Shown piece by piece: positions 52,401-64,000 of a stretch of 64,000 nucleotides of DNA (position 1 is its first letter; every line of letters begins with the position of its first letter). This stretch comes from Bacteroidales bacterium (GTDB lineage: Bacteria; Bacteroidota; Bacteroidia; Bacteroidales; UBA932). The position numbers and the translations under genes were made by a program. The notes under the pieces were generated by a model that saw only the letters and a list, made by a program, of their open reading frames with translations, was not told the origin of the DNA and made no database searches. The DNA is taken from NCBI GenBank assembly GCA_009777095.1, contig WRMN01000005.1, positions 1-64,000 of the forward strand, in the 5' to 3' direction.

Positions 52401-52502
52401 ATTACTGTTTATTATGAATACGATGATTTAGGCCGGTTAAAAACGATAAAAGATCAGCATAACAATATATTACAGCAAAATGAATACCACTATAAACAGT
52501 AA
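49491..52502 (+). CDS. Exported RHS/YD-repeat-type protein (N-terminal partner)
   Basis: Start at MKNKKQKACC with signal peptide ...CTIVVWGQ; VGHTTGVPQIEVPIYTLSTGWIDIPISISYHASGFRP; C-terminal YHEYDVYGNPVYISKDNAE..., YYEYDDLGRLKTIKDQHNN. Confidence 0.85.
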   Translation: MKNKKQKACCLFLVLCTIVVWGQNNDIPELPRPIPPTPQAAQFIRYGEIPVGHTTGVPQIEVPIYTLSTGWIDIPISISYHASGFRPREIPISVGLGWVLNAGGMISRAIEVLPDFEALPDDMPVKSEADIWGMKTGTYQPVGVYWFNSIWCWENLILNPQQNHSQIDTRSDRYSYNFLGNAGIARYNVNTKKLIPVPYAPLIINRIAIDHYVITDAKGIKYEFTVPEKTSYQISDHTFFPATSTGWHLSKISYPGMENDPVVFSYKNAEGYGEVISSRTISILKEFTTGSNFTCEQCGGCPGDSQKCPKQWTTNSSLNSIFYSYDSQIITSIKWKNVSIEFNYSDDRQDKRKERLTTIVVKHGNNIVRQAVIDNNDYFGSKPKSLRLKLNSISLYGNNTATNGEVYSFNYNYSSGVPEYGKIGGEDLWGYFNNSNDHLIPIEIAQHLKNTYPSAWLNPSIYPDRKPNEAATKTCVLEEIVYPTKGKTRFEYEINRIPGFYVNIGDSLSDMVGGLRLKKRINYSETGTVLDIKEYRYEGYGTMPLSYDMFIGELQTKESYGMHEHFLARLCADVTYKIATSSSMLSLTGWSASPVFYNKVIEYNGENAIFSGKTEYFYTAHNFPDDIPSVCKQTFSPWYFSVYNDCDKGHIKELLDSIKIYNQSEAIVRKTANTYQFYNIPYIPTGVHVKQLRLFPNGFDPWMAQAIVSSSCNEQSYYQNYFLGNIVAVNTYAKQEIHLLQSTTDTEYVNGAPAISKTSSYVYDTKDDKPILFTPFLVIQENSDGETWVSKSVFPYDDAYKNTAPYNIMVGKNMLDFPVEVKTGKGIKIINKQPINQRFTTYKQVADMILPDAISIKYTGDTPVEQRITYHEYDVYGNPVYISKDNAERVVYLWAYRGQYPVAEIVNAAYDEVENILGATLISRLASEDEPASNDLAAVNNLRNSLPNALVTTYTYKPLIGKATVTDPNNITVYYEYDDLGRLKTIKDQHNNILQQNEYHYKQ

Positions 52503-52515
52503 CCGGCTTAATTGC

Positions 52516-55500
52516 ATGCAGATGAAAAGGATATATAAAATACTATTGCTTGGCATAATACATTGTTTAACATTTCAGTTAGCTCATGCACATACACCGG
52601 ACTTCAATGAATTTGTCAATTTTCTCGTCGAAGACAATTTTCATGCCGGAGAAATAGCAGCAAACGCCGATACGGTAACCTGTACTGACTATGTGTTTAT
52701 TAGTGAAATTAGCGGAGCATCGTGTGCCTTGCCCTATCGCCCTATTTATAAATGGCAGCGAAAGATATTGCCCGGAGGAGTGGAAGAAGACATACCAGCG
52801 AGTAAAAGTCCTTCCTATGATGTAGGTTATTTAACTACTTCCACTGCTTTCCGGCGCGAAGCAAAATGCGATGAAACTATAGCCTATACTCCCTGGGTGG
52901 AGATAATCGTAGTACAGCCCTTATTGGCCGGCACTATTTTTCCGGCGAGCTTGTCGGTAAATAACTGCGAAAATATTCCACTATTACAGGTACAAGGATA
53001 TAGCGGTGGCACATCCTATACTTTCAGTTGGAGTTTGAAAATTTTGAATAAGGAACTGCAAATTTCGGGCGCCAATGCTTCTACCTATCAACCGCCTCCT
53101 ATGTCCCACTCTGCAGAATATCGCTGTAAGGTAACCAGCGGTAGCCAATCAGCTTATACGCCATGGATGCCCATTACCGTAGTAGCACAACCCTTATTAT
53201 CGGCCGGCGCCATTTCTCCGGCAAGTTTGTCGGTAAATGCCAATGAAACTATCTCTCCTTTACAAGTAGAAGGAGCCGGCGGAGGGTTGCTATGTTCTTA
53301 TACTTATCAATGGTGGTCTAAGTCACCTGTTACAGGCGTAGAAACGATGATCCCCGACAATAATGTTTTTATCTATCAACCGCCCCCGCTGAGTCAATCT
53401 ATGAACTATCGCTGTGAAGTAACCAGTGATGATCAATCGGCTTTTACGCCATGGATGGAAGTTAGAGTAAATGGGTCGGAAAGTTTAAATAATTATTTAG
53501 CGGAAGCAAATTATATCGCAACTTGCAGACCTTTGGATGCCGTACAGCAACTTAGCACCCTTTCCATAGAAGAACAGCAGCGCGCTACCTCCATTACCTA
53601 TTTCGATGGCCTGGGCCGCCCCATACAAACTGTCCTGCCCCTGCACACGCCCGAAGGCAAGGATTTAATCAGCAGCATTACATACGACGCCTTTGGCCGC
53701 GAAAGCCTGCAATACCTGCCTGTGCCTGTGGGTGGTAACAACGGTGGTAATTATGCAGCTACAGCCACCCTCAATACCGCCCGACAAAGTTTTTACGGAG
53801 CAGAAGCCCCCCGCGCCTTTGCCGAAACCATTTACGAACCCTCGCCTCTGAACCGCGTTACAGGGCAGGTGATGCCCGGCGCAGCGTGGGAAGCGCAGCC
53901 TGTTGAGTTGGACTACCAAACCAATACTTCGCCCTTAACCACATGGCACGCCACAAGCAATGGCAACTACACGCCGCTAAGCTATGCTGCCAACCAACTG
54001 TATGTAGCTCAGGTTACCGACCCCGACGGACGCCTCGCCCGCGAATACAAAGACAAATTAGGACGAGTGGTGATGACCGAGGCCTACGATGATACCGACT
54101 GGCTGCAAACAAGATATGTATATGACGATTTCGGGCAGCGAAAAGCCGTTGTGCCGCCCGAAGCTACAAGTGTAGAAGAGGAGGAATACTGTTATTACTA
54201 CGAACACGACTACCGGCGACGGGTGGTTAAAAAGAAAATCCCGGGTGCCGACTGGATCTATGTGGTATATGACAAGCTCGACCGCCCCATACTTACGCAG
54301 GACGGCAATCAGCGTACCCGCGATGAATGGACTTTCCGTAAATATGATGTCTTCGGACGGGAAATCATTACCGGCTTGTATTCCACTATGCTTACTCATA
54401 GCGATTTGCAGACACAGTTTGCAACTGAGTTGATTACCGAAGAATACACCGGCAGCGGCCTGGCCGGTTATTCGTGGAATAATGAACCCATTGTAACCCA
54501 AGCCGAAGACTTGCTTAGTGTGAATTATTATGACAACTACGCCGGGCTTTCGGTTATTACAGCAAGCAACCCTACCCAAGCCACCCTGAGCTTTATGGCT
54601 AACGATTTGGTAACGGAAACTGCCAATAGCAACAAAGGCCGATTAACCGCCACCCTCACGGCTGCCTTACCCTCCCCTACCTTAACTACTCTAACTACCT
54701 TAACCACTCTAACTACTACTCCTGTTTTAACCACTGTTTACTATTACGACACCTACGGTCGTGTGATACAAACCGTAGCCACCAACCATGTAGAAGGTAT
54801 AGACCGCGTAAGTACTCAATACGATTTTCGCGGCAATGTGCTGCAAAGCCTGCAGGAGAGCGATTGGATTAACGATAGCGATGACCCCGGCAGCTTGACC
54901 CTGCGGCAGACTATAGACTACGATTTGGTGAAGCGCCCCACAGCCATGCACCTGCAAATTAACGACGAGCCGCCGCAAACCATTGCAGAAATGGAATATG
55001 ATGAGTTAGGGCGGGTGAAAATAAAGCAATGGCACGATGGCGTTGAAAGTACGACCTATACCTACAATATACAGAACTGGCTGAAAACCATCACCGGCGC
55101 TTTGTACAGTCAGGAACTTTTCTACGAGCAGCCTCCGGCCGGCAGCACTGTAACTCCGCAATTTGGCGGCAACATCAGCGGCATGAGTTGGAGTACGCCG
55201 CAACACACCAACAACTGTTACGCATTTACCTACGATGGTGTCTCAAGGCTCATTAACTCTCAATTCTCAATTCTCAACTCTCAATTCTCAAACAGTTACA
55301 CCGAACATTTGACCTACAACAAAAACGGCAGCATTTTGACCCTGCAACGTTACGGCGCTAATGGTTTGATAGATGACATGAGCTACAGCTACAACGGCAA
55401 TCAGGTAATGCAGATTGTTGATATAGCTACTGCTGACGGTTTTCCTGTAGGGACTACCAATTATACTCACGATACTAACGGCAACACCATTACCGAAGGT

Positions 55501-56745
55501 AGCACGCAAACAAGCTACAACCTGCTCAATTTACCTTCACTCGTAACTTTAGTGGGCGGGCGAAAAATAGAAAATACTTATGCTGCCGATGGCCGTAAGT
55601 TAGCTACAGTAGCTAAAGAGGGCAATGAACTTAAAGAGGGAACTAAAACTTATAATGGTAACTTAGTCTTTGATCTAAACCGTGATTTGGAGTATATACT
55701 ATTCCCTGAGGGCAGGATTTTACATAATGCAGGAAGTTTTACTTATGAGTATCATCTCAAAGACCACTTAGGCTCTACAAGAGTTGCCTTTACGCCCATA
55801 AACAGCATCGCTAATGTCGTACAGGTCAATGCTTTTTATCCATTCGGAGCACCTATTGCCGCTTTGAGTTGGAGCAGCCAGACGCAGAACAAAAACCGCT
55901 ATCTCAGGGAAGGAAAGGAATACGTGAGCGACCATGGGTGGAATAAATATGACTTCGGTTGCCGTGCGTTTGATTCTTGGAATCTACACCCTTTACAACT
56001 TGACCCGATGGCGGAAAAGTTTTATCATTTGTCTCCGTACACGTTGTGGGGAAACAATCCCATGCGCAATATAGACCCCACGGGGATGATTTGGAGAGAT
56101 ATAAATGGAAATGAAATAGAAGACCATAGTAAGATTCAGGCATACATTTTCTATGACCCTCGCAAGAAAGGTGGATTTTCTGAACAATCCATGCAAATGG
56201 CTAAAGATTTGGAGCAAGAATATGGTGAAGGCACTGTTGCTATGAGCAATGTTACAACAGTGGAAGAATTTGTTCAAGATTGGGGCGACATGGCGGGAGT
56301 TAATATCAGTGAAGTAAATCTAAACTATCATGGTAACAATCAAACTATCATGTTAAATTCAAGTGGTAAACAGTATATTACTGCTACGGGTGATGGAAAA
56401 ACTAATCGGTCAGGAACAGATGCTACGAATGTACAAGATTTACCTGCACCCGCAGGCACCATTGATAATGCTCAGCTAAATATAAATACATGTGAATCTA
56501 ACAATCCTAACCAATATCCGTTAAAAGGTTCGGGTCAAACTCTTATGAATGCGTTTAGAACGACTACCGACTTTAATGTTGTAAGAGGTACTTCCTACGG
56601 GGTCAGTTATGACAGAACTACAAAGCAGCCTTTTCCCGGACGTTCGTGGAGTCGTGGCACATGGGATTATATGTATAAACCTGCCCCTATAGTAACAAAA
56701 TATCCCGGCATAGACCTAACCCTACCTCTGCCTGTATTAAAATGA
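52516..56745 (+). CDS. RHS repeat-associated core protein (DUF6443-type) with variable C-terminal toxin-like tip
   Basis: Signal peptide; ATSITYFDGLGRPIQTVLPLHTP; YD repeats; core end HLKDHLGSTRVAF...FGAPIAALSWSSQTQNKNRYLREGKEY...LDPMAEKFYHLSPYTLWGNNPMRNIDPTGM; unrelated tip follows. Confidence 0.9.
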   Translation: MQMKRIYKILLLGIIHCLTFQLAHAHTPDFNEFVNFLVEDNFHAGEIAANADTVTCTDYVFISEISGASCALPYRPIYKWQRKILPGGVEEDIPASKSPSYDVGYLTTSTAFRREAKCDETIAYTPWVEIIVVQPLLAGTIFPASLSVNNCENIPLLQVQGYSGGTSYTFSWSLKILNKELQISGANASTYQPPPMSHSAEYRCKVTSGSQSAYTPWMPITVVAQPLLSAGAISPASLSVNANETISPLQVEGAGGGLLCSYTYQWWSKSPVTGVETMIPDNNVFIYQPPPLSQSMNYRCEVTSDDQSAFTPWMEVRVNGSESLNNYLAEANYIATCRPLDAVQQLSTLSIEEQQRATSITYFDGLGRPIQTVLPLHTPEGKDLISSITYDAFGRESLQYLPVPVGGNNGGNYAATATLNTARQSFYGAEAPRAFAETIYEPSPLNRVTGQVMPGAAWEAQPVELDYQTNTSPLTTWHATSNGNYTPLSYAANQLYVAQVTDPDGRLAREYKDKLGRVVMTEAYDDTDWLQTRYVYDDFGQRKAVVPPEATSVEEEEYCYYYEHDYRRRVVKKKIPGADWIYVVYDKLDRPILTQDGNQRTRDEWTFRKYDVFGREIITGLYSTMLTHSDLQTQFATELITEEYTGSGLAGYSWNNEPIVTQAEDLLSVNYYDNYAGLSVITASNPTQATLSFMANDLVTETANSNKGRLTATLTAALPSPTLTTLTTLTTLTTTPVLTTVYYYDTYGRVIQTVATNHVEGIDRVSTQYDFRGNVLQSLQESDWINDSDDPGSLTLRQTIDYDLVKRPTAMHLQINDEPPQTIAEMEYDELGRVKIKQWHDGVESTTYTYNIQNWLKTITGALYSQELFYEQPPAGSTVTPQFGGNISGMSWSTPQHTNNCYAFTYDGVSRLINSQFSILNSQFSNSYTEHLTYNKNGSILTLQRYGANGLIDDMSYSYNGNQVMQIVDIATADGFPVGTTNYTHDTNGNTITEGSTQTSYNLLNLPSLVTLVGGRKIENTYAADGRKLATVAKEGNELKEGTKTYNGNLVFDLNRDLEYILFPEGRILHNAGSFTYEYHLKDHLGSTRVAFTPINSIANVVQVNAFYPFGAPIAALSWSSQTQNKNRYLREGKEYVSDHGWNKYDFGCRAFDSWNLHPLQLDPMAEKFYHLSPYTLWGNNPMRNIDPTGMIWRDINGNEIEDHSKIQAYIFYDPRKKGGFSEQSMQMAKDLEQEYGEGTVAMSNVTTVEEFVQDWGDMAGVNISEVNLNYHGNNQTIMLNSSGKQYITATGDGKTNRSGTDATNVQDLPAPAGTIDNAQLNINTCESNNPNQYPLKGSGQTLMNAFRTTTDFNVVRGTSYGVSYDRTTKQPFPGRSWSRGTWDYMYKPAPIVTKYPGIDLTLPLPVLK
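55255..55292 (+). repeat. Heptamer tandem repeat inside RHS coding sequence
   Basis: aactctcaattctcaattctcaactctcaattctcaaa, encoding [12 protein letters not shown]; same heptamers as at 21884-21920. Confidence 0.9.
55843..55952 (+). repeat. 110-bp direct repeat, copy A (RHS core/tip junction)
   Basis: 4 mismatches by eye to 62467-62576; same reading frame. Confidence 0.95.
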
Positions 56746-56805
56746 CACCCAAGTACAAGATTATTCAAATAAAACAACAATAAGAGCGTTTAGAAAGATT
56801 AATTT

Positions 56806-57258
56806 ATGAAACGAAAATTTTATACAGAAATATTATTTATAGCTATATCCTTATTCTGTAGTTGTAGAGGAAGATTGCCAGAAACCGTTATTTTTTTTGA
56901 AAATTATGATTTGAGTACTGGAGAATATAAACTTCTTGTGTTTGGAGGAGAGGGGCAATGGATTGATGATTATCGAGACTTTTATATTGACGATACTGAA
57001 GTCCTGACAAAGATGCAAAAACGATGGGTTTTCAAGTATCAATCGGATATAATGGCATGTGGTTATGGATATTCAATTTTGTTAGTTGATAGAAACAAGG
57101 TGCTTAAAGAAGTGGAAGTTAATATTGAATGTGATTGCGAATATATGTCAGGTTGGATATACTTTCCCAGAAGTTATTTATCAGATTATAAAAATCATTT
57201 TAAAAAAATGACAGAAATGGAGAAGAAGGAGTTTTTGGAAAAGTATAGGAAGAATTAG
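56806..57258 (+). CDS. Small putative lipoprotein, candidate immunity protein
   Basis: 150 aa; N-terminal signal with Cys (SLFCSC); lies directly downstream of the toxin tip. Confidence 0.6.
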   Translation: MKRKFYTEILFIAISLFCSCRGRLPETVIFFENYDLSTGEYKLLVFGGEGQWIDDYRDFYIDDTEVLTKMQKRWVFKYQSDIMACGYGYSILLVDRNKVLKEVEVNIECDCEYMSGWIYFPRSYLSDYKNHFKKMTEMEKKEFLEKYRKN

Positions 57259-57492
57259 ATAAAAAACAAAGAAAAATACCGCTACCCTTCCCGTCGTTCA
57301 ACCAACACATCGGGTTGCCTCTTTTGGCAAAACAAACTCAATCCCGCACAGGGGGCTTTGTTATTAGACGGTTTTCAGGGGGAAAGGTTTAACGCGGAGT
57401 TCCCTGCTTCGCGGTCAGGCCGGTGGTTGTTTGTTCCTTGAGCAGGAAAAGCGGAGTTCGTCATCGCTCGTCGGCACAAAACCATGCCATGC

Positions 57493-57549
57493 CGTTCAGC
57501 CCTTTTTTCTTTTTTGCTTAATTTATAAGGCATAAAAAAAGGCTGAACG
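57493..57549. terminator. Long inverted repeat flanked by T/A tracts (possible bidirectional terminator)
   Basis: cgttcagcccttttttc (57493-) versus aaaaaaaggctgaacg (57534-57549). Confidence 0.55.
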
Positions 57550-58224
57550 CCCTTCGGGTGCTTCGCTGTCGCTTCGCAGCCTGTCATGGTTTTTGCAGCT
57601 CCTCGTTCTTCCTCACGGCAGGCTCCCGCGTCCGTGTGTTCGTGCTTCCTGCTTCGTACCTCGCAGTCGCACCAACACACCTCCGGCGCCTGCCCATAAT
57701 TTTGCTCGCCTGCTGGTCGCCGCCGGCTGCGGGCTTGTCATGGTTTTTGCGGGCATGGCCGCGTCTTTAGATTTAACGGCAGCCATGCCTCACGGCAAAA
57801 ACCACGCCAAGCCCTTGTGTGAGGCACATAGGTCGCCCCCGCTGCTTCCTGCTTCGTGCCTCGCAGTCGCAGCTCTCAGGCTCCCACCGGCGGCTCCACT
57901 CGCAGGCGGCTCGCGCCTTCCGTTCGCTTACGCTCACTTCGGCTGCTTGGCCGTCGGCCATTACGCTACGCTCCACAGCCTCCGGCCAGCCGTTGGATAA
58001 GAACCGACCGAAGCAGGTAAGAGCAGGCTGCAGATTAAAAATGCAGATTGTTTCCTTTGTAATCCTCAGGGTTAGATGTGTGCCAGGCTGAAGTCCCTGC
58101 AGTTGTTTGCTCGTTTTTTACGTAAATTTGTCCGCTGCGCTTCCAAACATACATAAAAAACGAACGATGTTTTTCTGTGCAGTTCAAAGGAGGAAAGCAG
58201 CTGTATTAACTGGACTTTTAGCGT

Positions 58225-58584
58225 CTATACAAAAGTTATCTTTCCGTCGAGCAGGTCTTTCATTCTCTTTTTAGTAAGCATGGAATTAATGATTTTGATT
58301 AAGGCCTCTTTCTCGTCATCGTCCAGCTGGTTCATCATCATTAACTGCTCGTTCTTCTCGCGGCTTTGAATGTTTACAGCACCGTTGTCGTCATCATTCA
58401 GCAGCCGGTCGGCAGAGACGGCAAAGACTCTCATCAGTCGCTGCACAATGTCGATAGAGGGCAGCAGATGGCCGTTCTCCATCTTGGACAGGTGGGTAAC
58501 ATGAATATGTAATCTGTTGGCCAGTTCCTGCTGGTTCATGTCGGCTGCCTTACGCAGGGCTCTAATCTTATCTTTAAACGCCAT
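58225..58584 (-). CDS. XRE-family HTH transcriptional regulator
   Basis: MAFKDKIRALRKAADMNQQELANRLHIHVTHLSKMENGHLLPSIDIVQRLMRVFAVSADRLL; start 58584. Confidence 0.9.
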   Translation of the reverse strand: MAFKDKIRALRKAADMNQQELANRLHIHVTHLSKMENGHLLPSIDIVQRLMRVFAVSADRLLNDDDNGAVNIQSREKNEQLMMMNQLDDDEKEALIKIINSMLTKKRMKDLLDGKITFV

Positions 58585-58690
58585 ATTGGAAAGTGTTATT
58601 GTCGCAGGCAAAGTTACCATAATTTAAGATATTTAACTATTTTTTTTTGTTTTTAATGAAAATATATTGCAAATATATGAAATTTATTTT

Positions 58691-58698
58691 TACCTTTG
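58691..58698 (+). promoter_or_regulatory. Promoter -7 TACCTTTG (TTG at 58667-58669)
   Basis: TAnnTTTG with TTG 21 bp upstream; lies inside the ORF-track N-terminus, supporting start at 58767. Confidence 0.6.
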
Positions 58699-58766
58699 CA
58701 TTCAAAATAACAATTAATTTTATTGTTAAATTCTCAAGGCCACTGAATTTTGATAAAACAAGCGAT

Positions 58767-60293
58767 ATGAACCCACTGCAAATACTTAATCCTCATTTTC
58801 TTATTTACAGCGATGAGCTGTTTACGATAGACGTTCTTGGCGGGATAGACCTGCTGCAGATGGAAAGAATGATCTGTACCCTGCGGATAACACACAAAAA
58901 CTATCCGCCGATGCGCACTACCCTTGATTTGTACAGCGACAGCCAAACCGACAGACTCATTCGCAGGCTCTGCGACAAATACGGCTTGACGCTCGTAGAA
59001 AGCGCTAAATCCGTACATGCCTGTATCTGCCAGCTGGAAAGCTACAGACTGGAACGGCTGCGCTACCCGCAGGGCGAGCAGGAAGATACTTTTGAGATGA
59101 GCGAAGAAGAACGGCAGGCAGCAAAAAAGTATTTATCACATAAAAACCTGATTGCCAACCTGAAAAATGATTTGGAAAAAATCGGGATTTTGGGCGAGGA
59201 AGACAACGCTTTGATTTTGTTTTTGGCCATGGCAAGCCACAAAAGCGACAGCCCTTTTTCCGTTCTCTGCCTTTCCGAAAGCGGCATCGGTAAAAGCTAT
59301 CTGCTGCAAAAATTATCGGAATGCATGCCGAAAAACACCTTTTCCTTTCACACCCAAATAAGCGAAAACGCCCTTTATTACTTCGACAGCAGGCAGATTG
59401 ACGGCAAAATCCTGTTTATTGAAGACTTGGAATGGACAAACGCAATGCTGATGCCGCTGGCTACGCTGCAAACACAGGGCAGACTGATAAAAACCCGTGC
59501 CACCAAAGACAAAGACGGAATGCTGCACAGTACCACCTTTGAAGTGGCGGCAAAACTCTGTTTAATTGCCTGCGCCTGTTCCGAAAAGAACTGTGAACAG
59601 TTGAGCCTGCCCTTTTTGTGCCTGCACCTGAACCACAGCAGCGCACAGGATACTAACGTTATGGAATATCAAAAGAAAATCAGGGCGGGTTTGATTAACC
59701 AAACAGAAATAAGCCAAATACAGCGGCGTTTGCAGTGTGTAATTGCAAGCCTGAAAAACACAGGCATTATCAACCCTTTTGCAACACTTATTCACCTGCC
59801 CGATGACGTTCCGCACCCAAGAAAAACGCTTTTACTGCTACTTAATTTCATTGATGCTATTACCTTTTTCCGCCAGTACCAAAGAGAAGAAACCGCCGAC
59901 CCGAACACCGGCGAGGTGATGATAAAAACCCGACCCGAAGACATAGAACTGGCTTTTACCTTACTGAAAAGTTCCCTGCTGCGCCGGGTCGATGAGTTGA
60001 GTATAGCGGTGCAGGGTTTTTACGCCTGGCTGCAACAGTATTTAAACAGGGCGCAAACAAACCTGTTTACCGCCTTTGACCTGCGCAGGGAAAAACGCAT
60101 ACACCCGCGAACCCTGAACCGCTATCTGCAGGAGCTTTGCCTGTTCCACTGCATACAAATCACCGGCGGGAACAGGTACCGGGAGGGCTACCGGTACAGG
60201 ATTACCGGCCTGAACGAAGGCAATAACCTGAGCGAAAGCATGGAAAGCGCTGTAAAGCAAACGCTTGATAAAATAAAAAGCGAAATTCAGTAG
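58767..60293 (+). CDS. AAA+-like ATPase with C-terminal winged-helix-like region
   Basis: Walker A-like SESGIGKSYLLQKL, Walker B-like GKILFIEDLEW; C-terminal RREKRIHPRTLNRYLQELCLFHCIQITGGNRYREGYRYRI. Confidence 0.7.
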   Translation: MNPLQILNPHFLIYSDELFTIDVLGGIDLLQMERMICTLRITHKNYPPMRTTLDLYSDSQTDRLIRRLCDKYGLTLVESAKSVHACICQLESYRLERLRYPQGEQEDTFEMSEEERQAAKKYLSHKNLIANLKNDLEKIGILGEEDNALILFLAMASHKSDSPFSVLCLSESGIGKSYLLQKLSECMPKNTFSFHTQISENALYYFDSRQIDGKILFIEDLEWTNAMLMPLATLQTQGRLIKTRATKDKDGMLHSTTFEVAAKLCLIACACSEKNCEQLSLPFLCLHLNHSSAQDTNVMEYQKKIRAGLINQTEISQIQRRLQCVIASLKNTGIINPFATLIHLPDDVPHPRKTLLLLLNFIDAITFFRQYQREETADPNTGEVMIKTRPEDIELAFTLLKSSLLRRVDELSIAVQGFYAWLQQYLNRAQTNLFTAFDLRREKRIHPRTLNRYLQELCLFHCIQITGGNRYREGYRYRITGLNEGNNLSESMESAVKQTLDKIKSEIQ

Positions 60294-60359
60294 GACAGTA
60301 GGACAAACCCCACTGTCCGACTCTCAAAGCCCCGCCGGCAAAGGGATAAGCAGTAGGAC
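60289..60359. repeat. AGTAGGAC repeats and inverted GGACAGT/ACTGTCC
   Basis: AGTAGGAC at 60289, 60297 and 60352; GGACAGT 60293-60299 with ACTGTCC 60312-60318. Confidence 0.85.
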
Positions 60360-60391
60360 GACACAAAACAGAAAAATCAGGAATTAAAAAT

Positions 60392-61330
60392 ATGGATAAG
60401 GCAGGATTTATGCACTATTTAGAAAGTAAAGAGCTTACTGTAAACTATATAGCTCGATGTACAAGGCTGGCAGAGCGCTTTTTTAAGCAAGCTGAAAAGG
60501 AAGACATACAGGTAATCAAAGCCGATATTTTAAAGTACCTGGAAGCTCTGAACAGAAAAGGGCTGCAAAACATATCACGCTATCGTTCGCTCTCTGCGCT
60601 AAATCATTACTTCAGTTTCCTTTACGGCGCGGGATTAATCGACAAAAACCCCTGTCTGCTGCTTAAAATACGCGGAATAAAAAGAAAAATACTGTACAAA
60701 ACTTACAGCCCCGAAGAACTTGAGGCGCTTTTTGATAATTATTACCAGTACTTTGTACGCAGCCATGATGAGAGTTGCCTGCCCGAAAATCATCGAAAAT
60801 CATCGGCTTTGAAAAAGTACAGAAACGCCGTGATAGTAAGTATTTTAATCTTTCAGGGGGCAATATCGGGCGAAATAGAAGGAATAGAAGTGAACGATAT
60901 GGATTTAATGAAAGCGACTGTTAAAATACGGGGCGGACGGCGCAGCAACGGGAGAACGCTGCCGCTCAAAGCCGCCCAAATCGGTTTAATGATGCACTAT
61001 TTGCAGAACATACGTCCGCAGCTGATGGAATACCGAACAGGGGAGACCGACAGGCTGGTTTTTCCTTTGTTCGGCAACAAAAATAACGCCGATAAGGATA
61101 ATATTTTAAATGTAACAGGAATGATTGCCAAACAGTTAAAAACCATTGACAAGCAATTTTTAAATTTTAAACAGCTGCGGGCTTCGGTCATTAGCTTTTG
61201 GATAAAGACGCAGGGATTACGCAAAGCCCAGTACATGGCCGGGCATCGTTACGTCAGCAGTACAGAGAATTACTTATCCAATAATTTAGAGGACTTAACA
61301 GAGGAGATTAACAAATTACACCCGTTTTAA
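60392..61330 (+). CDS. Tyrosine recombinase-like protein with degenerate catalytic residues
   Basis: SAM-like N-terminal domain; QGAISGEIEGIEVNDMD where GLRxSE is expected, FKQLRASVISFW where HxLRH is expected; AGHRYVSSTENYLSNN retained. Confidence 0.85.
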   Translation: MDKAGFMHYLESKELTVNYIARCTRLAERFFKQAEKEDIQVIKADILKYLEALNRKGLQNISRYRSLSALNHYFSFLYGAGLIDKNPCLLLKIRGIKRKILYKTYSPEELEALFDNYYQYFVRSHDESCLPENHRKSSALKKYRNAVIVSILIFQGAISGEIEGIEVNDMDLMKATVKIRGGRRSNGRTLPLKAAQIGLMMHYLQNIRPQLMEYRTGETDRLVFPLFGNKNNADKDNILNVTGMIAKQLKTIDKQFLNFKQLRASVISFWIKTQGLRKAQYMAGHRYVSSTENYLSNNLEDLTEEINKLHPF

Positions 61331-62238
61331 TGAATAAAGGATACAGAACAGTTGCAGCCGAATATGCTGTATGGCTTGATACGCTTGGTTACTCCGAGGG
61401 CTTGCGCTATGGCTGTAACTCAGCCCTGAAGCTGTTTTTGGAATGGCTGGAAGACAACCGGCTGCAAAGCATAAATCAACTGAGGGATAAACATATAAAC
61501 GATTATCGTCAGTATTTGGAAACGCGCCGGCACCTGCGCATCAAAGGCCGTTTGCTGAGCGTTGCTCACTTAAACCGAAATTATTTTGCCATTGATAAAC
61601 TGTTGGAGTTCCTGCACCAGTACGGTGTGGAAAAGGTCCCGGTGCCTGCCAACCGCCGTATAAAAATGGATAAGCAGGAGCGGATAGGAAAAATAGAAGT
61701 TCTTACACAGCAGGAAATAAAAACGCTGTACAGGGGCATACCGAACACCTATCAAAAAAAACTGTCCTTTGAAGAACGGCAAGCCAAACAGTACGAGTTA
61801 AAACTGATTTTTGCCCTCTTTTACGGCTGCGGCTTACGGCGTTCCGAAGGCTACAGGCTGCAGCTGCAGGACGTTGATTTTGATAAAAAAACCGTGTTTG
61901 TAAGGCAGGGAAAGAACTACAAAGACCGCACTGTTCCGATGAGTGCGGGCGTTTACGAAGCATTGCAGGATTACGTTTACAACTTCCGGCACCAGCTGAA
62001 ACTAAAACACAATCGTTTATTTATCAGCGATATACACATGCTGCGGTTGCGCCTTAAATACCTGCAGAACAGTTGCAAAGACACGAATATACAGGCTAAA
62101 GTCATCACCCTGCACACGCTTCGCCATTCTATTGCGACCCATCTGCTGCAAAACGGCATGAGCATCGAAAACATCGCCCTGTTTTTAGGGCATAACAGCC
62201 TTGACAGCACACAGATTTACACGCATTTAGTCAATTAG
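61330..62238 (+). CDS. Tyrosine recombinase with intact catalytic residues
   Basis: YGCGLRRSEGYRLQLQDVDF, RQGKNYKDRTVPM, LHTLRHSIATHLLQNG, FLGHNSLDSTQIYTHL; 1-nt overlap with the upstream gene (TAATG). Confidence 0.95.
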   Translation: MNKGYRTVAAEYAVWLDTLGYSEGLRYGCNSALKLFLEWLEDNRLQSINQLRDKHINDYRQYLETRRHLRIKGRLLSVAHLNRNYFAIDKLLEFLHQYGVEKVPVPANRRIKMDKQERIGKIEVLTQQEIKTLYRGIPNTYQKKLSFEERQAKQYELKLIFALFYGCGLRRSEGYRLQLQDVDFDKKTVFVRQGKNYKDRTVPMSAGVYEALQDYVYNFRHQLKLKHNRLFISDIHMLRLRLKYLQNSCKDTNIQAKVITLHTLRHSIATHLLQNGMSIENIALFLGHNSLDSTQIYTHLVN

Positions 62239-62263
62239 AGGCAGAGATTGAGAATTTTAAAAG

Positions 62264-62288
62264 GAGGACTTAAAAATCCTCTTTTTTT
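62264..62288 (+). terminator. Rho-independent terminator after the recombinases
   Basis: GAGGA-cttaaaaa-TCCTC followed by TTTTTTT. Confidence 0.7.
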
Positions 62289-62313
62289 GTGCTTGTATCT
62301 GAATATTTTTTAG

Positions 62314-62321
62314 TAATTTTG
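62314..62321 (+). promoter_or_regulatory. Promoter -7 TAATTTTG (TTG at 62293-62295)
   Basis: TAnnTTTG with TTG about 18 bp upstream, just before the orphan tip gene. Confidence 0.55.
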
Positions 62322-62343
62322 CAGTGGTAAATCTCTGTAAAAA

Positions 62344-63333
62344 ATGGGCTGCGTTAAACTGCACATATTGGACGAACAGTATAAAAGACCTGAGTTCAAG
62401 GTAAGTTACATTAAAAAAGAACTGACCTCGAATTTTTGTGATAAAAACGCACGTAGTTCCTCACTCTTCGGAGCGCCTATTGCCGCTTTGAGTTGGAGCA
62501 ACCAGACGCAGAATAAAAACCGCTATCTCAGGGAAGGAAAGGAATATGTGAGCGACCATGGGTGGAATAAATATGATTACCACGCCAGAGCATTTTGTTC
62601 GTGGAGTATACACCCTCTACAACTTGACCCGATGGCGGAAATGTTTTATCATTTATCGCCGTATGCGTTGTGGGCAAACAATCCAGTCAATGCAATTGAC
62701 CCCGATGGGCGAGTTGTTTGGGTTCTTCCTCTAATTCCTGCTATAAAAAGTTTACTTATAGCTACAGGTATTACAACAACCGCTTATGTGGCACATAAAG
62801 CCGCGAGAGATGCTAATATTGGACAGGCTATTAGTGGCGCTCTCAGAGATGCAGGTAATGCCATAGGGGAAGTGTTTTCCTCTCCAAACTCTGTTGCTAC
62901 GTCAAGAGTAGAAGAGGGTCGTGTAGCCGCAGATAATACGCAGGTACAGACACGGATACCTCTCTCAGATGTTGTTGTAAAAGAAAATAGAGCAGCTACT
63001 CGAGAGCAAAAGAACAATCAACAAAGAGATGATAGAATAAAGCAAGGGAAAGCAGATGAGGCGCGGGGAAATGTACAAAACGCGGCGGATAACAGTGGTT
63101 ATGGGCAACGCCCACCTGGTGGCGATCCAGAACCTAAAAATAAAGTTGTGACGACAATTGGAAAGATAACACTTGGAGGAGGGGTATCAGCTCTAGGAAT
63201 TTATCAAATTTTTGGAAATAGTGATATACAGCAGGTACAAGAACAAATGCAACAACAACAGCAACAACAGCAACAAGAACAACAGCAACAACAAAGCCTA
63301 TGGGAACGTTTGAAATCCTTATTTACAGATTAA
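62344..63333 (+). CDS. Orphan RHS C-terminal tip cassette with membrane-active-like toxin region and polyQ tail
   Basis: MGCVKLHILDEQYKRPEFKVSYIKKEL... then FGAPIAALSWSNQTQNKNRYLREGKEYVSDHGWNKYDYHARAF...LDPMAEMFYHLSPYALWANNPVNAIDPDGR; two hydrophobic segments; QQQQQQQQQEQQQQQSLWERLKSLFTD. Confidence 0.85.
   Translation: MGCVKLHILDEQYKRPEFKVSYIKKELTSNFCDKNARSSSLFGAPIAALSWSNQTQNKNRYLREGKEYVSDHGWNKYDYHARAFCSWSIHPLQLDPMAEMFYHLSPYALWANNPVNAIDPDGRVVWVLPLIPAIKSLLIATGITTTAYVAHKAARDANIGQAISGALRDAGNAIGEVFSSPNSVATSRVEEGRVAADNTQVQTRIPLSDVVVKENRAATREQKNNQQRDDRIKQGKADEARGNVQNAADNSGYGQRPPGGDPEPKNKVVTTIGKITLGGGVSALGIYQIFGNSDIQQVQEQMQQQQQQQQQEQQQQQSLWERLKSLFTD
62467..62576 (+). repeat. 110-bp direct repeat, copy B
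   Basis: Near identical to 55843-55952, in the same codon phase. Confidence 0.95.
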
Positions 63334-63334
63334 T

Positions 63335-63535
63335 ATGAAATATCTTAGATTTCTAAATAAATTAAGCGATGTGTTGATTATTCCTACGGCAATTGGGGGA
63401 GCGTGTATTGTAATATTTAAAGACACATTAAACACTTTAAAATACGCGCAGGCCTTGCGATTCTTAGTCGTTATGATGGGCATAATTATTGTTGTAGGAG
63501 CTTTAGTGAAAAATAAAAATGAAAAAAATAATTAA
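63335..63535 (+). CDS. Small membrane protein, candidate immunity protein (copy 1)
   Basis: MKYLRFLNKLSDVLIIPTAIGGACIVIFKDTLNTLKYAQALRFLVVMMGIIIVVG; two TM helices; starts 1 nt after the toxin stop. Confidence 0.65.
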   Translation: MKYLRFLNKLSDVLIIPTAIGGACIVIFKDTLNTLKYAQALRFLVVMMGIIIVVGALVKNKNEKNN

Positions 63536-63728
63536 TTTTATATTGTATAATACTTATAGTATTTTACTGTGTATCTTTTCGATATATTTGCTAATTTATG
63601 GTTTTTGTGGATTTGATAAATTAGCTCCGATTTACACCTATTTATTAGTTTTATTATTAGGCATGATAATCGGGTTTGGCCTTCACAGAAAGGTTAGTCA
63701 GTTACTATATCGTATGAATAACAAGTGA
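63519..63728 (+). CDS. Small membrane protein, second immunity-like ORF
   Basis: 69 aa, two TM helices; overlaps the previous ORF by 17 bp. Confidence 0.55.
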   Translation: MKKIINFILYNTYSILLCIFSIYLLIYGFCGFDKLAPIYTYLLVLLLGMIIGFGLHRKVSQLLYRMNNK

Positions 63729-63835
63729 GTATTTGCAAAAACAACAGCAACAACAACAAGAGTTACAGCAGCAACAAGAACAACAGCAAAAACAAAGCCT
63801 ATGAGAACGTTTGAAATCCTTATTTACAGATTAAT
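63729..63835 (+). pseudogene. Relic of RHS toxin polyQ tail
   Basis: EYLQKQQQQQQELQQQQEQQQKQSL*, with TGG to TGA versus the copy at 63300; acaaagcctatgRgaacgtttgaaatccttatttacagattaatatgaaat duplicated (63291-63341 and 63792-63842, one mismatch). Confidence 0.85.
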
Positions 63836-64000
63836 ATGAAATTTTTTAAAATCTTAAAAAAAATAAGTAATGTGCTATTTATACCTACATTAATTGGAGC
63901 AGTTTGCTTATTGATATTTAAAGGTGAGTTAAATACTCTTAAATATGCACAAACAATACGATACTTATTCGTTGTCGTATGCATCATTACTTTAATCGGA
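63836..64000 (+). CDS. Small membrane protein, paralog of 63335-63535 (truncated by window edge)
   Basis: MKFFKILKKISNVLFIPTLIGAVCLLIFKGELNTLKYAQTIRYLFVVVCIITLIG aligns with copy 1. Confidence 0.7.
   Translation, partial: MKFFKILKKISNVLFIPTLIGAVCLLIFKGELNTLKYAQTIRYLFVVVCIITLIG

Follow-up and report, generated by a model that had tools for sequence, protein, structure and literature searches.

Introduction

Displacement of old contact-dependent inhibition (CDI) toxin tips by incoming modules was proposed in 2016, with integrases found among the orphan modules (PMC4927057). Standalone toxin-immunity cassettes were also reported to replace tips (PMC3482391), and a review from 2020 ascribed tip exchange to homologous recombination (PMC7662968). 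Within this study, a pair of tyrosine recombinase genes was analyzed that is encoded in a 64,000-nucleotide stretch of a Bacteroidales bacterium (GTDB lineage UBA932; assembly GCA_009777095.1, contig WRMN01000005.1, positions 1 to 64,000), hereafter called the window. Sequence comparisons indicate that this pair very probably serves the integration of a mobile element by which polymorphic toxins, here those of the rearrangement hotspot (RHS) type, receive new tips. As for the orphan cdiA-CT/cdiI and rhs-CT/rhsI modules (PMC4927057, PMC3482391, PMC7662968), displaced toxin-immunity pairs located downstream, tandem arrays and nearby integrases were observed. The accounts of these modules define no element, attachment (att) site or recombinase module and attribute exchange for the most part to homologous recombination, whereas the present study delimits the unit and specifies its ends and genes, within RHS genes and with a paired recombinase.

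Integrative elements featuring paired or degenerate tyrosine recombinases include SE, GInt, Tn554 and RIT (PMC10214605, PMC5385486). SE (IntA-Tfp-IntB-Srap; PMC10214605) and GInts (GinABCD; PMC5385486) resemble the present element in encoding several co-transcribed tyrosine recombinases, one of which is residue-deficient (Tfp, GinC), in their target specificity and in being integrative elements consisting of a single unit. In contrast, their modules comprise four genes including two catalytic recombinases and a third, residue-deficient one, their cargo and targets are unrelated, no primase-helicase is reported for them, and the host range of SE is the Gammaproteobacteria. The window element was set apart from both families on the basis of operon composition (ginABCD, intA-tfp-intB-srap). 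Tn554 (TnpA/TnpB/TnpC) likewise has two tyrosine recombinases in one operon, uses a specific site and causes no target duplication, but carries the RHRY motif in both recombinases (PMC10214605), requires TnpC and has neither a helicase nor toxin-tip cargo. No third small TnpC-like gene was seen in the window operon, a search for TnpC homology itself not being included. RIT elements likewise hold several consecutive tyrosine recombinase genes, but these are three, all with the catalytic tyrosine, accompanied by terminal inverted repeats and no helicase (PMC10214605); complete modules of the family studied here hold two recombinases. The original prediction for this locus had named Tn554 and RIT elements for comparison, and neither appears to be the right family for what is probably the integration module of an RHS tip-carrying element.

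In the rAID clusters of Bacteroidales, a tyrosine recombinase is also located beside interbacterial immunity genes, but these clusters are orphan immunity-gene arrays following a single recombinase, with no toxin tip, helicase or RHS target (PMC12247911). SaPI-type satellites share the combination of an integrase and a primase-helicase in a small integrative element; unlike these, the present module shows no packaging or phage genes, and its target and cargo are the end of a toxin gene. Among open-licence PMC papers, the idea of displacement was found, and none that describes the element, its attachment sites, the link to a primase-helicase or the two-subunit RHS version. Integrative elements and polymorphic-toxin cassettes are both known kinds, and a case can be made that the present element constitutes a new class.

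Genomic Context of the Recombinase Pair

The two recombinase genes are located at 60392..61330, encoding a degenerate tyrosine recombinase of 312 aa, and at 61330..62238, encoding a catalytically complete one of 302 aa; these and all further features lie on the forward strand unless stated otherwise. The proteins were labeled RecA and RecB, respectively; these labels were coined here, and the former implies no kinship to the RecA recombinase. Both open reading frames (ORFs) and their overlap of 1 nt (TAATG) agreed with the original prediction, which had overlooked that the pair lies in a duplicated module flanked by RHS toxin genes. This module, consisting of genes for a helix-turn-helix (HTH) protein, a helicase, RecA and RecB, sits between an intact RHS gene with its candidate immunity gene on one side and a 5'-truncated orphan RHS tip on the other. 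A second module copy, located just outside the window (C5:65670-70892), is 99.8% identical over 5.2 kb and is associated with a different tip, each of the two near-identical modules of this genome thus lying between RHS tips. Typical traits of a polymorphic-toxin cassette were present, namely an RHS core, a variable C-terminal tip, an adjacent candidate immunity gene and orphan tips.

This context was also found for relatives of the module. In a profile search, in which the RecA family scored above about 150 bits and the ubiquitous XerC/D proteins below about 141 bits, family members were detected in roughly 36 of 395 genomes of the class Bacteroidia. Profile searching for RHS cores located a co-oriented one within approximately 8 kb in 53 of 61 RecA-family loci, and no locus featured only RHS genes of opposed orientation. 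Among the XerC/D control loci, an RHS core was found near none of 19 (of the 20 chosen, one locus had been cut wrongly and holds no recombinase). Four further loci (L029-L032) were assigned by eye to another type of RHS core. Two of these, L031 and L032, belong to different genera and carry modules that are 97% identical but flanked on either side by differing tips, and the block shared between them begins after the immunity gene.

Element Ends and Tandem Units

Directly after the recombinase genes, a short non-RHS segment gives way, without transition, to the interior of an RHS core. The corresponding right end (62422..62466) consists of the motif CTGACCT followed by 28 nt ending in GTAG and is conserved in the Bacteroidales subfamily; CTGACCT occurs at equal distance in L027, L028, L029 and L040 and is also present, followed by a longer tail, in L030-L032 and L035. 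An inverted partner of this motif was sought at the left side and was not found. The motif at which the right end meets the RHS core is YPFG in the window (62467), PYKFGxKEYD in L027 and RYYxP in L030-L032; in L040, the contact lies at a later motif. Hence, the point at which the abutting core is cut varies from family to family, and the cores have lost their 5' part. Since a core fragment devoid of its 5' part is located exactly at the end of the element, the element appears to have inserted into an RHS gene, and the stretch from the RHS core to the right end, including the current tip and immunity gene, therefore represents the candidate insert.

In the window, the proposed attR (62464..62475) comprises TTCGG at 62467, the position from which the sequence abruptly becomes homologous to the RHS core. 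The proposed attL (TATCCATTCGGAGC, 55835..55850) features TTCGG at 55843, corresponding to the F1122-G codons of the RHS core motif YPFG, in frame. It lies within the intact RHS gene (52480..56745; 1421 aa, DUF6443 match), whose 3' end from approximately 55843 is the proposed cargo tip, whose core aligns with the orphan fragment from 62467 onward and whose reading frame is unbroken through the proposed left junction. Because the two units of the window genome share the module and not the tip, the left end at 55843 was deduced from the exact junctions in G417, G177 and closed plasmids. The element would accordingly extend from 55843 to 62467 (6,624 bp), and the following unit would comprise 8,367 bp, ending at C5:70834. 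The displaced orphan RHS tip (62344..63333; 329 aa, Rhs_assc_core TIGR03696) has a new start with an MGCVKL leader. Right ends often provide displaced tips with such a start, leaders of the type MGC(L/V)KL being present on orphan RHS proteins of L027/L028, L083 (11825), L087 (14798), L088 and L089 and of the window (62344).

In relatives, complete units were found in tandem. The repeated unit consists of the 3' end of the RHS core, tip, immunity gene, HTH gene, helicase gene, RecB, RecA and right end, and has a size of 6,749 bp in G417 (99.97% identical copies) and 7,333 bp in G177. Two closed plasmids contain tandem units of 8,169 bp (Aureibacter tunicatorum pAT2; 99.98%) and 7,652 bp (Aureispira CCB-E; 99.7%), and in both of them the two copies have identical protein accessions. 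Junctions of these arrays lie within conserved RHS-core codons. In pAT2, only TATGGATT is common to attL, attMid and attR, with attL differing leftward and attR rightward, a pattern that, at the level of sequence, matches the prediction for site-specific exchange; the common block of the G177 junctions is CTTTTGGG.

A Related Class in cdiA

In Proteobacteria, full-length primase-helicase relatives were found in loci that are organized alike but have only one recombinase, which is XerC-like. The hosts of this sister class are CdiA-type toxins in Paraburkholderia, Enterobacter and E. coli and an FG-GAP protein in Janthinobacterium. In E. coli C11 (L145), a 7.8-kb unit within cdiA encodes tip, immunity protein, HTH protein, primase-helicase, XerC, DinJ and RelE. 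The cdiA elements of ZYB39 and of the Enterobacter plasmid described below likewise have a single recombinase, a DinJ-RelE pair and a position at the VENN codons. The VENN motif is known to delimit CdiA tips, and the C11 unit is flanked by two copies of the 13-bp sequence TGTTGAGAATAAC, which is the DNA of this motif. Strains 1303 and 2013C-3181 possess an uninterrupted cdiA that continues in frame into the displaced tip of C11 and is followed by the same downstream genes; this comparison of empty and filled sites was made between natural sequences only. Moreover, two tandem copies were detected in ZYB39 (L146; period of 7,782 bp) and on the Enterobacter plasmid pJBIWA003_2 (L147; 7,685 bp). 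Taken at the sequence level, these data suggest that the VENN-coding DNA may serve as the recombinase attachment site.

Catalytic Residues and Conservation of the Recombinases

Both proteins belong to the tyrosine recombinase superfamily with the two-domain fold of XerD. The Pfam model PF00589 (Phage_integrase) matched RecA (E 3.4e-8) and RecB (E 1.7e-33) above cut-off, RecA additionally matched Phage_int_SAM_1, and XerD/XerC NCBIfam models matched both. With 81 and 128 bits compared to the curated XerC/XerD cut-off of 330 bits, the pair does not represent XerC/XerD; RecB reached 110 bits with the integron integrase model (cut-off 265). The structure predicted for RecA (mean pLDDT 85) shows the XerA/XerD fold, with XerA as the top PDB match (E 4e-12).

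Alignment to E. coli XerD revealed equivalents of R148, K172, H244, R247, H270 and Y279 in RecB, in accordance with the complete catalytic set ascribed to it originally. The first protein had been described as degenerate, with loss of the first arginine, the beta-hairpin lysine and the histidine of the HxxR box. The alignment confirmed two of these losses for RecA: Ile replaces Arg-I (QGAISGEI), and Lys replaces His-II in the HxxR box (KQLR), in which Arg-II is retained. His-III (AGH) and the tyrosine (SSTENY) are also kept, as had been noted. Loss of the hairpin lysine (K-beta) is less certain, because the hairpin alignment is ambiguous in the RecA family, where the position is occupied by R in 19 and by K in 10 of 47 homologs.

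Conservation was evaluated for 47 unique RecA-family members and 44 unique RecB partners. Co-conservation of the degenerate residues across homologs, the check proposed originally, was found among Bacteroidota for His-II (lost in 46 of 47) and Arg-I (lost in 40 of 47); in contrast, Arg-II is kept in all 47, the tyrosine in 46 and His-III in 43. RecA thus lacks the full R-K-H-R-H-Y set, whereas R, K, H, R and Y are intact in all 44 RecB proteins, one of which is a His-III variant. As judged from these sequences, a residue-loss pattern shared in this way is far beyond chance. In a maximum-likelihood tree, RecA, RecB and Xer proteins formed three separate groups with full support, RecA (100/100) and RecB (100/99) each being monophyletic. 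Furthermore, the same sub-clades recur in the RecA and RecB halves of the tree, and RecB adjoins RecA in most loci. The Bacteroidales subfamily, which includes the window, has its genes arranged as helicase-A-B, and the arrangement elsewhere is helicase-B-A. For pairs with measurable dS, the ratio of non-synonymous to synonymous substitution rates (dN/dS; Nei-Gojobori) of RecA was 0.09-0.17, similar to that of neighboring genes. By these sequence-based measures, RecA is an ancient clade that has been co-inherited with an intact partner under purifying selection, and is not a decayed copy.

Proposed Mechanism and Alternative Explanations

The proposed element has a size of approximately 6.5-8.5 kb and would comprise the 3' part of an RHS core with its tip, an immunity gene, a divergent HTH gene, a gene for an MCM-like helicase, the recombinase pair and a short right end. 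The pair would carry out recombination between a site on the element in its excised form and a short stretch of DNA encoding a conserved RHS-core motif, which would be YPFG in the window and YxYGFNG, YE(C/L)SNHLGN or RYYDP in relatives. By integration, the tip of the element would be fused in frame to the RHS gene of the host and the matching immunity gene would be delivered, and the old tip and immunity gene would be pushed downstream as an orphan receiving its start codon from the right end of the element. Tandem arrays would arise through repeated integration. Excision may proceed as a circle, the joint of which would connect the right end to TATGGATTTAACGG in the case of pAT2; the HTH protein may repress the element, and the helicase/primase may replicate its excised form. 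This proposal draws on unit content, co-orientation, exact tandem junctions, tandem accumulation and the empty and filled cdiA site, all of which are read directly from the sequences.

A heteromeric recombinase with a degenerate subunit, as envisaged in the original prediction, fits the sequence data well, being in line with co-inheritance, matching trees and purifying selection. RecA may act as a non-cleaving partner that occupies one arm, leaving cleavage to RecB. If RecA cannot cleave, only one strand pair would be cut by a tetramer containing two subunits of each protein, and resolution of the junction would fall to replication or to enzymes of the host, as is the case for integrons. The term structural subunit, however, has to be used conditionally, because Arg-II, His-III and the tyrosine nucleophile are retained in nearly all homologs, and the retained tyrosine and Arg-II leave room for a residual, limited or in-trans catalytic role of RecA. 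A wider scheme is regarded as possible but doubtful. In this scheme, re-tipping elements would occur across phyla, with attachment sites encoding the motifs by which toxin tips have long been recognized, namely VENN in CdiA and YPFG, YxYGFNG or NHLGN in RHS proteins, and those of Bacteroidota would use an obligate heteromer whose degenerate subunit blocks one cleavage, leading to single-strand exchange and copy-in by the primase-helicase and not to a canonical double exchange.

Several observations weigh against the proposed element. A natural empty site is available for the single-recombinase cdiA class. None was found for RHS units with two recombinases, and a search gave no useful plasmid that has the same RHS gene minus the element. 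The right end of L035 does not meet RHS, and L033, L082 and L114 are without recognizable RHS neighbors. Moreover, a purely structural subunit would not need the tyrosine and Arg-II that RecA retains. In addition, the window copies are identical only from 57304, past the immunity gene. Because they share the module and not the tip, inclusion of the cargo is seen only in relatives, and tips would also have to be exchanged by another route, for example homologous recombination. This last point leads to the possibility that the module alone is the element, inserting into intergenic DNA of RHS arrays, with tips being exchanged by homologous recombination only. For rhs, homologous exchange of tips has been documented (discussed in PMC4927057), and in L031/L032, as in the window, the shared block starts past the immunity gene. 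Nevertheless, the right end meets a 5'-truncated RHS core and not intergenic DNA, the duplicated units of four Bacteroidota and two cdiA loci have their start at codons of the core motif and contain both the tip and the immunity gene, and in C11 compared to 1303 tip, immunity gene and module were inserted together. This explanation is thus very unlikely and already largely refuted; insertion of the module only was rejected after consideration of the tandem arrays and the C11/1303 comparison.

A resident, non-mobile enzyme exchanging silent tips with the expressed RHS gene in the manner of an invertible or shufflon-type system would account for the arrays next to the recombinases, in which silent tips are accompanied by core fragments, and the direct-repeat sites would allow deletion or exchange inside an array. 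It is nonetheless considered unlikely, as each silent tip has its own module copy instead of one central recombinase, modules 97% identical occur with different tips in different genera, the presence of helicase and primase genes is in keeping with an excised form that is replicated, and the sister class shows presence or absence at one chromosomal site. Finally, RecA might be a decaying duplicate without a role, RecB alone being active, an explanation to which the missing catalytic residues and the related cdiA elements working with one recombinase would conform. The refuting observation named originally was that homologs reveal a simply decayed copy, and the monophyletic clade, the matching trees and the dN/dS values exclude it. 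Furthermore, Arg-II and the tyrosine are invariant or nearly so, RecB lies alongside in most loci, and in G022 the recombinase split into three ORFs is RecB instead of RecA, which makes a roleless RecA extremely improbable. In that locus (L040:4122-5397, G022:C265), RecA and the helicase gene are open.

Further Features of the Locus

The MCM-like AAA+ ATPase encoded at 58767..60293 (alternative start at 58647), here termed Prim, possesses a conserved Walker A motif (SGIGKS) and is a predicted helicase. Pfam, NCBIfam and PHROGs provided no name for this protein, and it was placed by fold search only: Foldseek matched its AlphaFold model (pLDDT 81) best to MCM2-7 helicases with E 4e-8 and a TM-score of only approximately 0.4, the SaPI5 primase-helicase being among the distant matches. 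Many relatives carry an N-terminal CHC2 zinc finger and a Toprim domain and thus correspond to DnaG-type primases, while no relatives were found in the phage records searched. The gene of the predicted Cro/C1-type HTH repressor (58225..58620, reverse strand; HTH_3 PF01381, E 1.8e-13) is divergent from the helicase gene, a position conserved in most relatives.

Directly after the RHS stop codon, the candidate immunity gene of the current tip (56806..57258) encodes a lipoprotein-like protein of 150 aa whose function is proposed from its position; small ORFs occupy the same position in related loci. The duplicated block starts with an interspersed intergenic repeat of approximately 100 nt (57288..57392; AACCAACACATCGGGTTGCCTCTTT...AGGGGGAAAGGTTTAA) that is not element-specific. 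Other copies are located at C1:241410-241675, C2:99538-99644, C5:72332-72406, C5:73003-73100, C6:356-445 and C13:5156-5262, several behind RHS tip/immunity blocks and others at unrelated genes. An attC-like cassette attachment site was considered for this repeat and rejected, because copies adjoin unrelated genes on C1, C2 and C13.

Downstream of the orphan tip, small membrane ORFs (63335..63728) are candidate immunity genes of the displaced tip on account of their position. Diverged direct repeats were found within 63250-64744; from 63250-64000 in the window to C5:64001-65270, such repeats encode small membrane proteins and look like an expanding immunity-gene array. Beside the module, ORF6N-like proteins (L080:8286-8816, L083:9345-9878, L091:8877-9431) and DUF1016/YhcG nuclease-like proteins (L084:9489-10550, L029:2688-3728, L031:2405-3499) recur in many relatives, one of each having been confirmed by Pfam.

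Conclusions

Polymorphic toxins such as RHS and CDI proteins rank with the principal weapons by which bacteria compete; the exchange of their tips together with the matching immunity has so far been left to 'recombination'. The present data point to one particular enzyme module and to a unit and sites that are defined, so that the question of tip exchange becomes testable with respect to the proteins, the DNA site and the intermediate involved. If the MGC(L/V)KL leader corresponds to the right end of the element, a search for this leader alone could map past insertions. Moreover, it is predicted that conserved pre-toxin motifs persist partly as recombination sites, and the pair of a complete and a degenerate recombinase would offer a natural system for studying half-active synaptic complexes.
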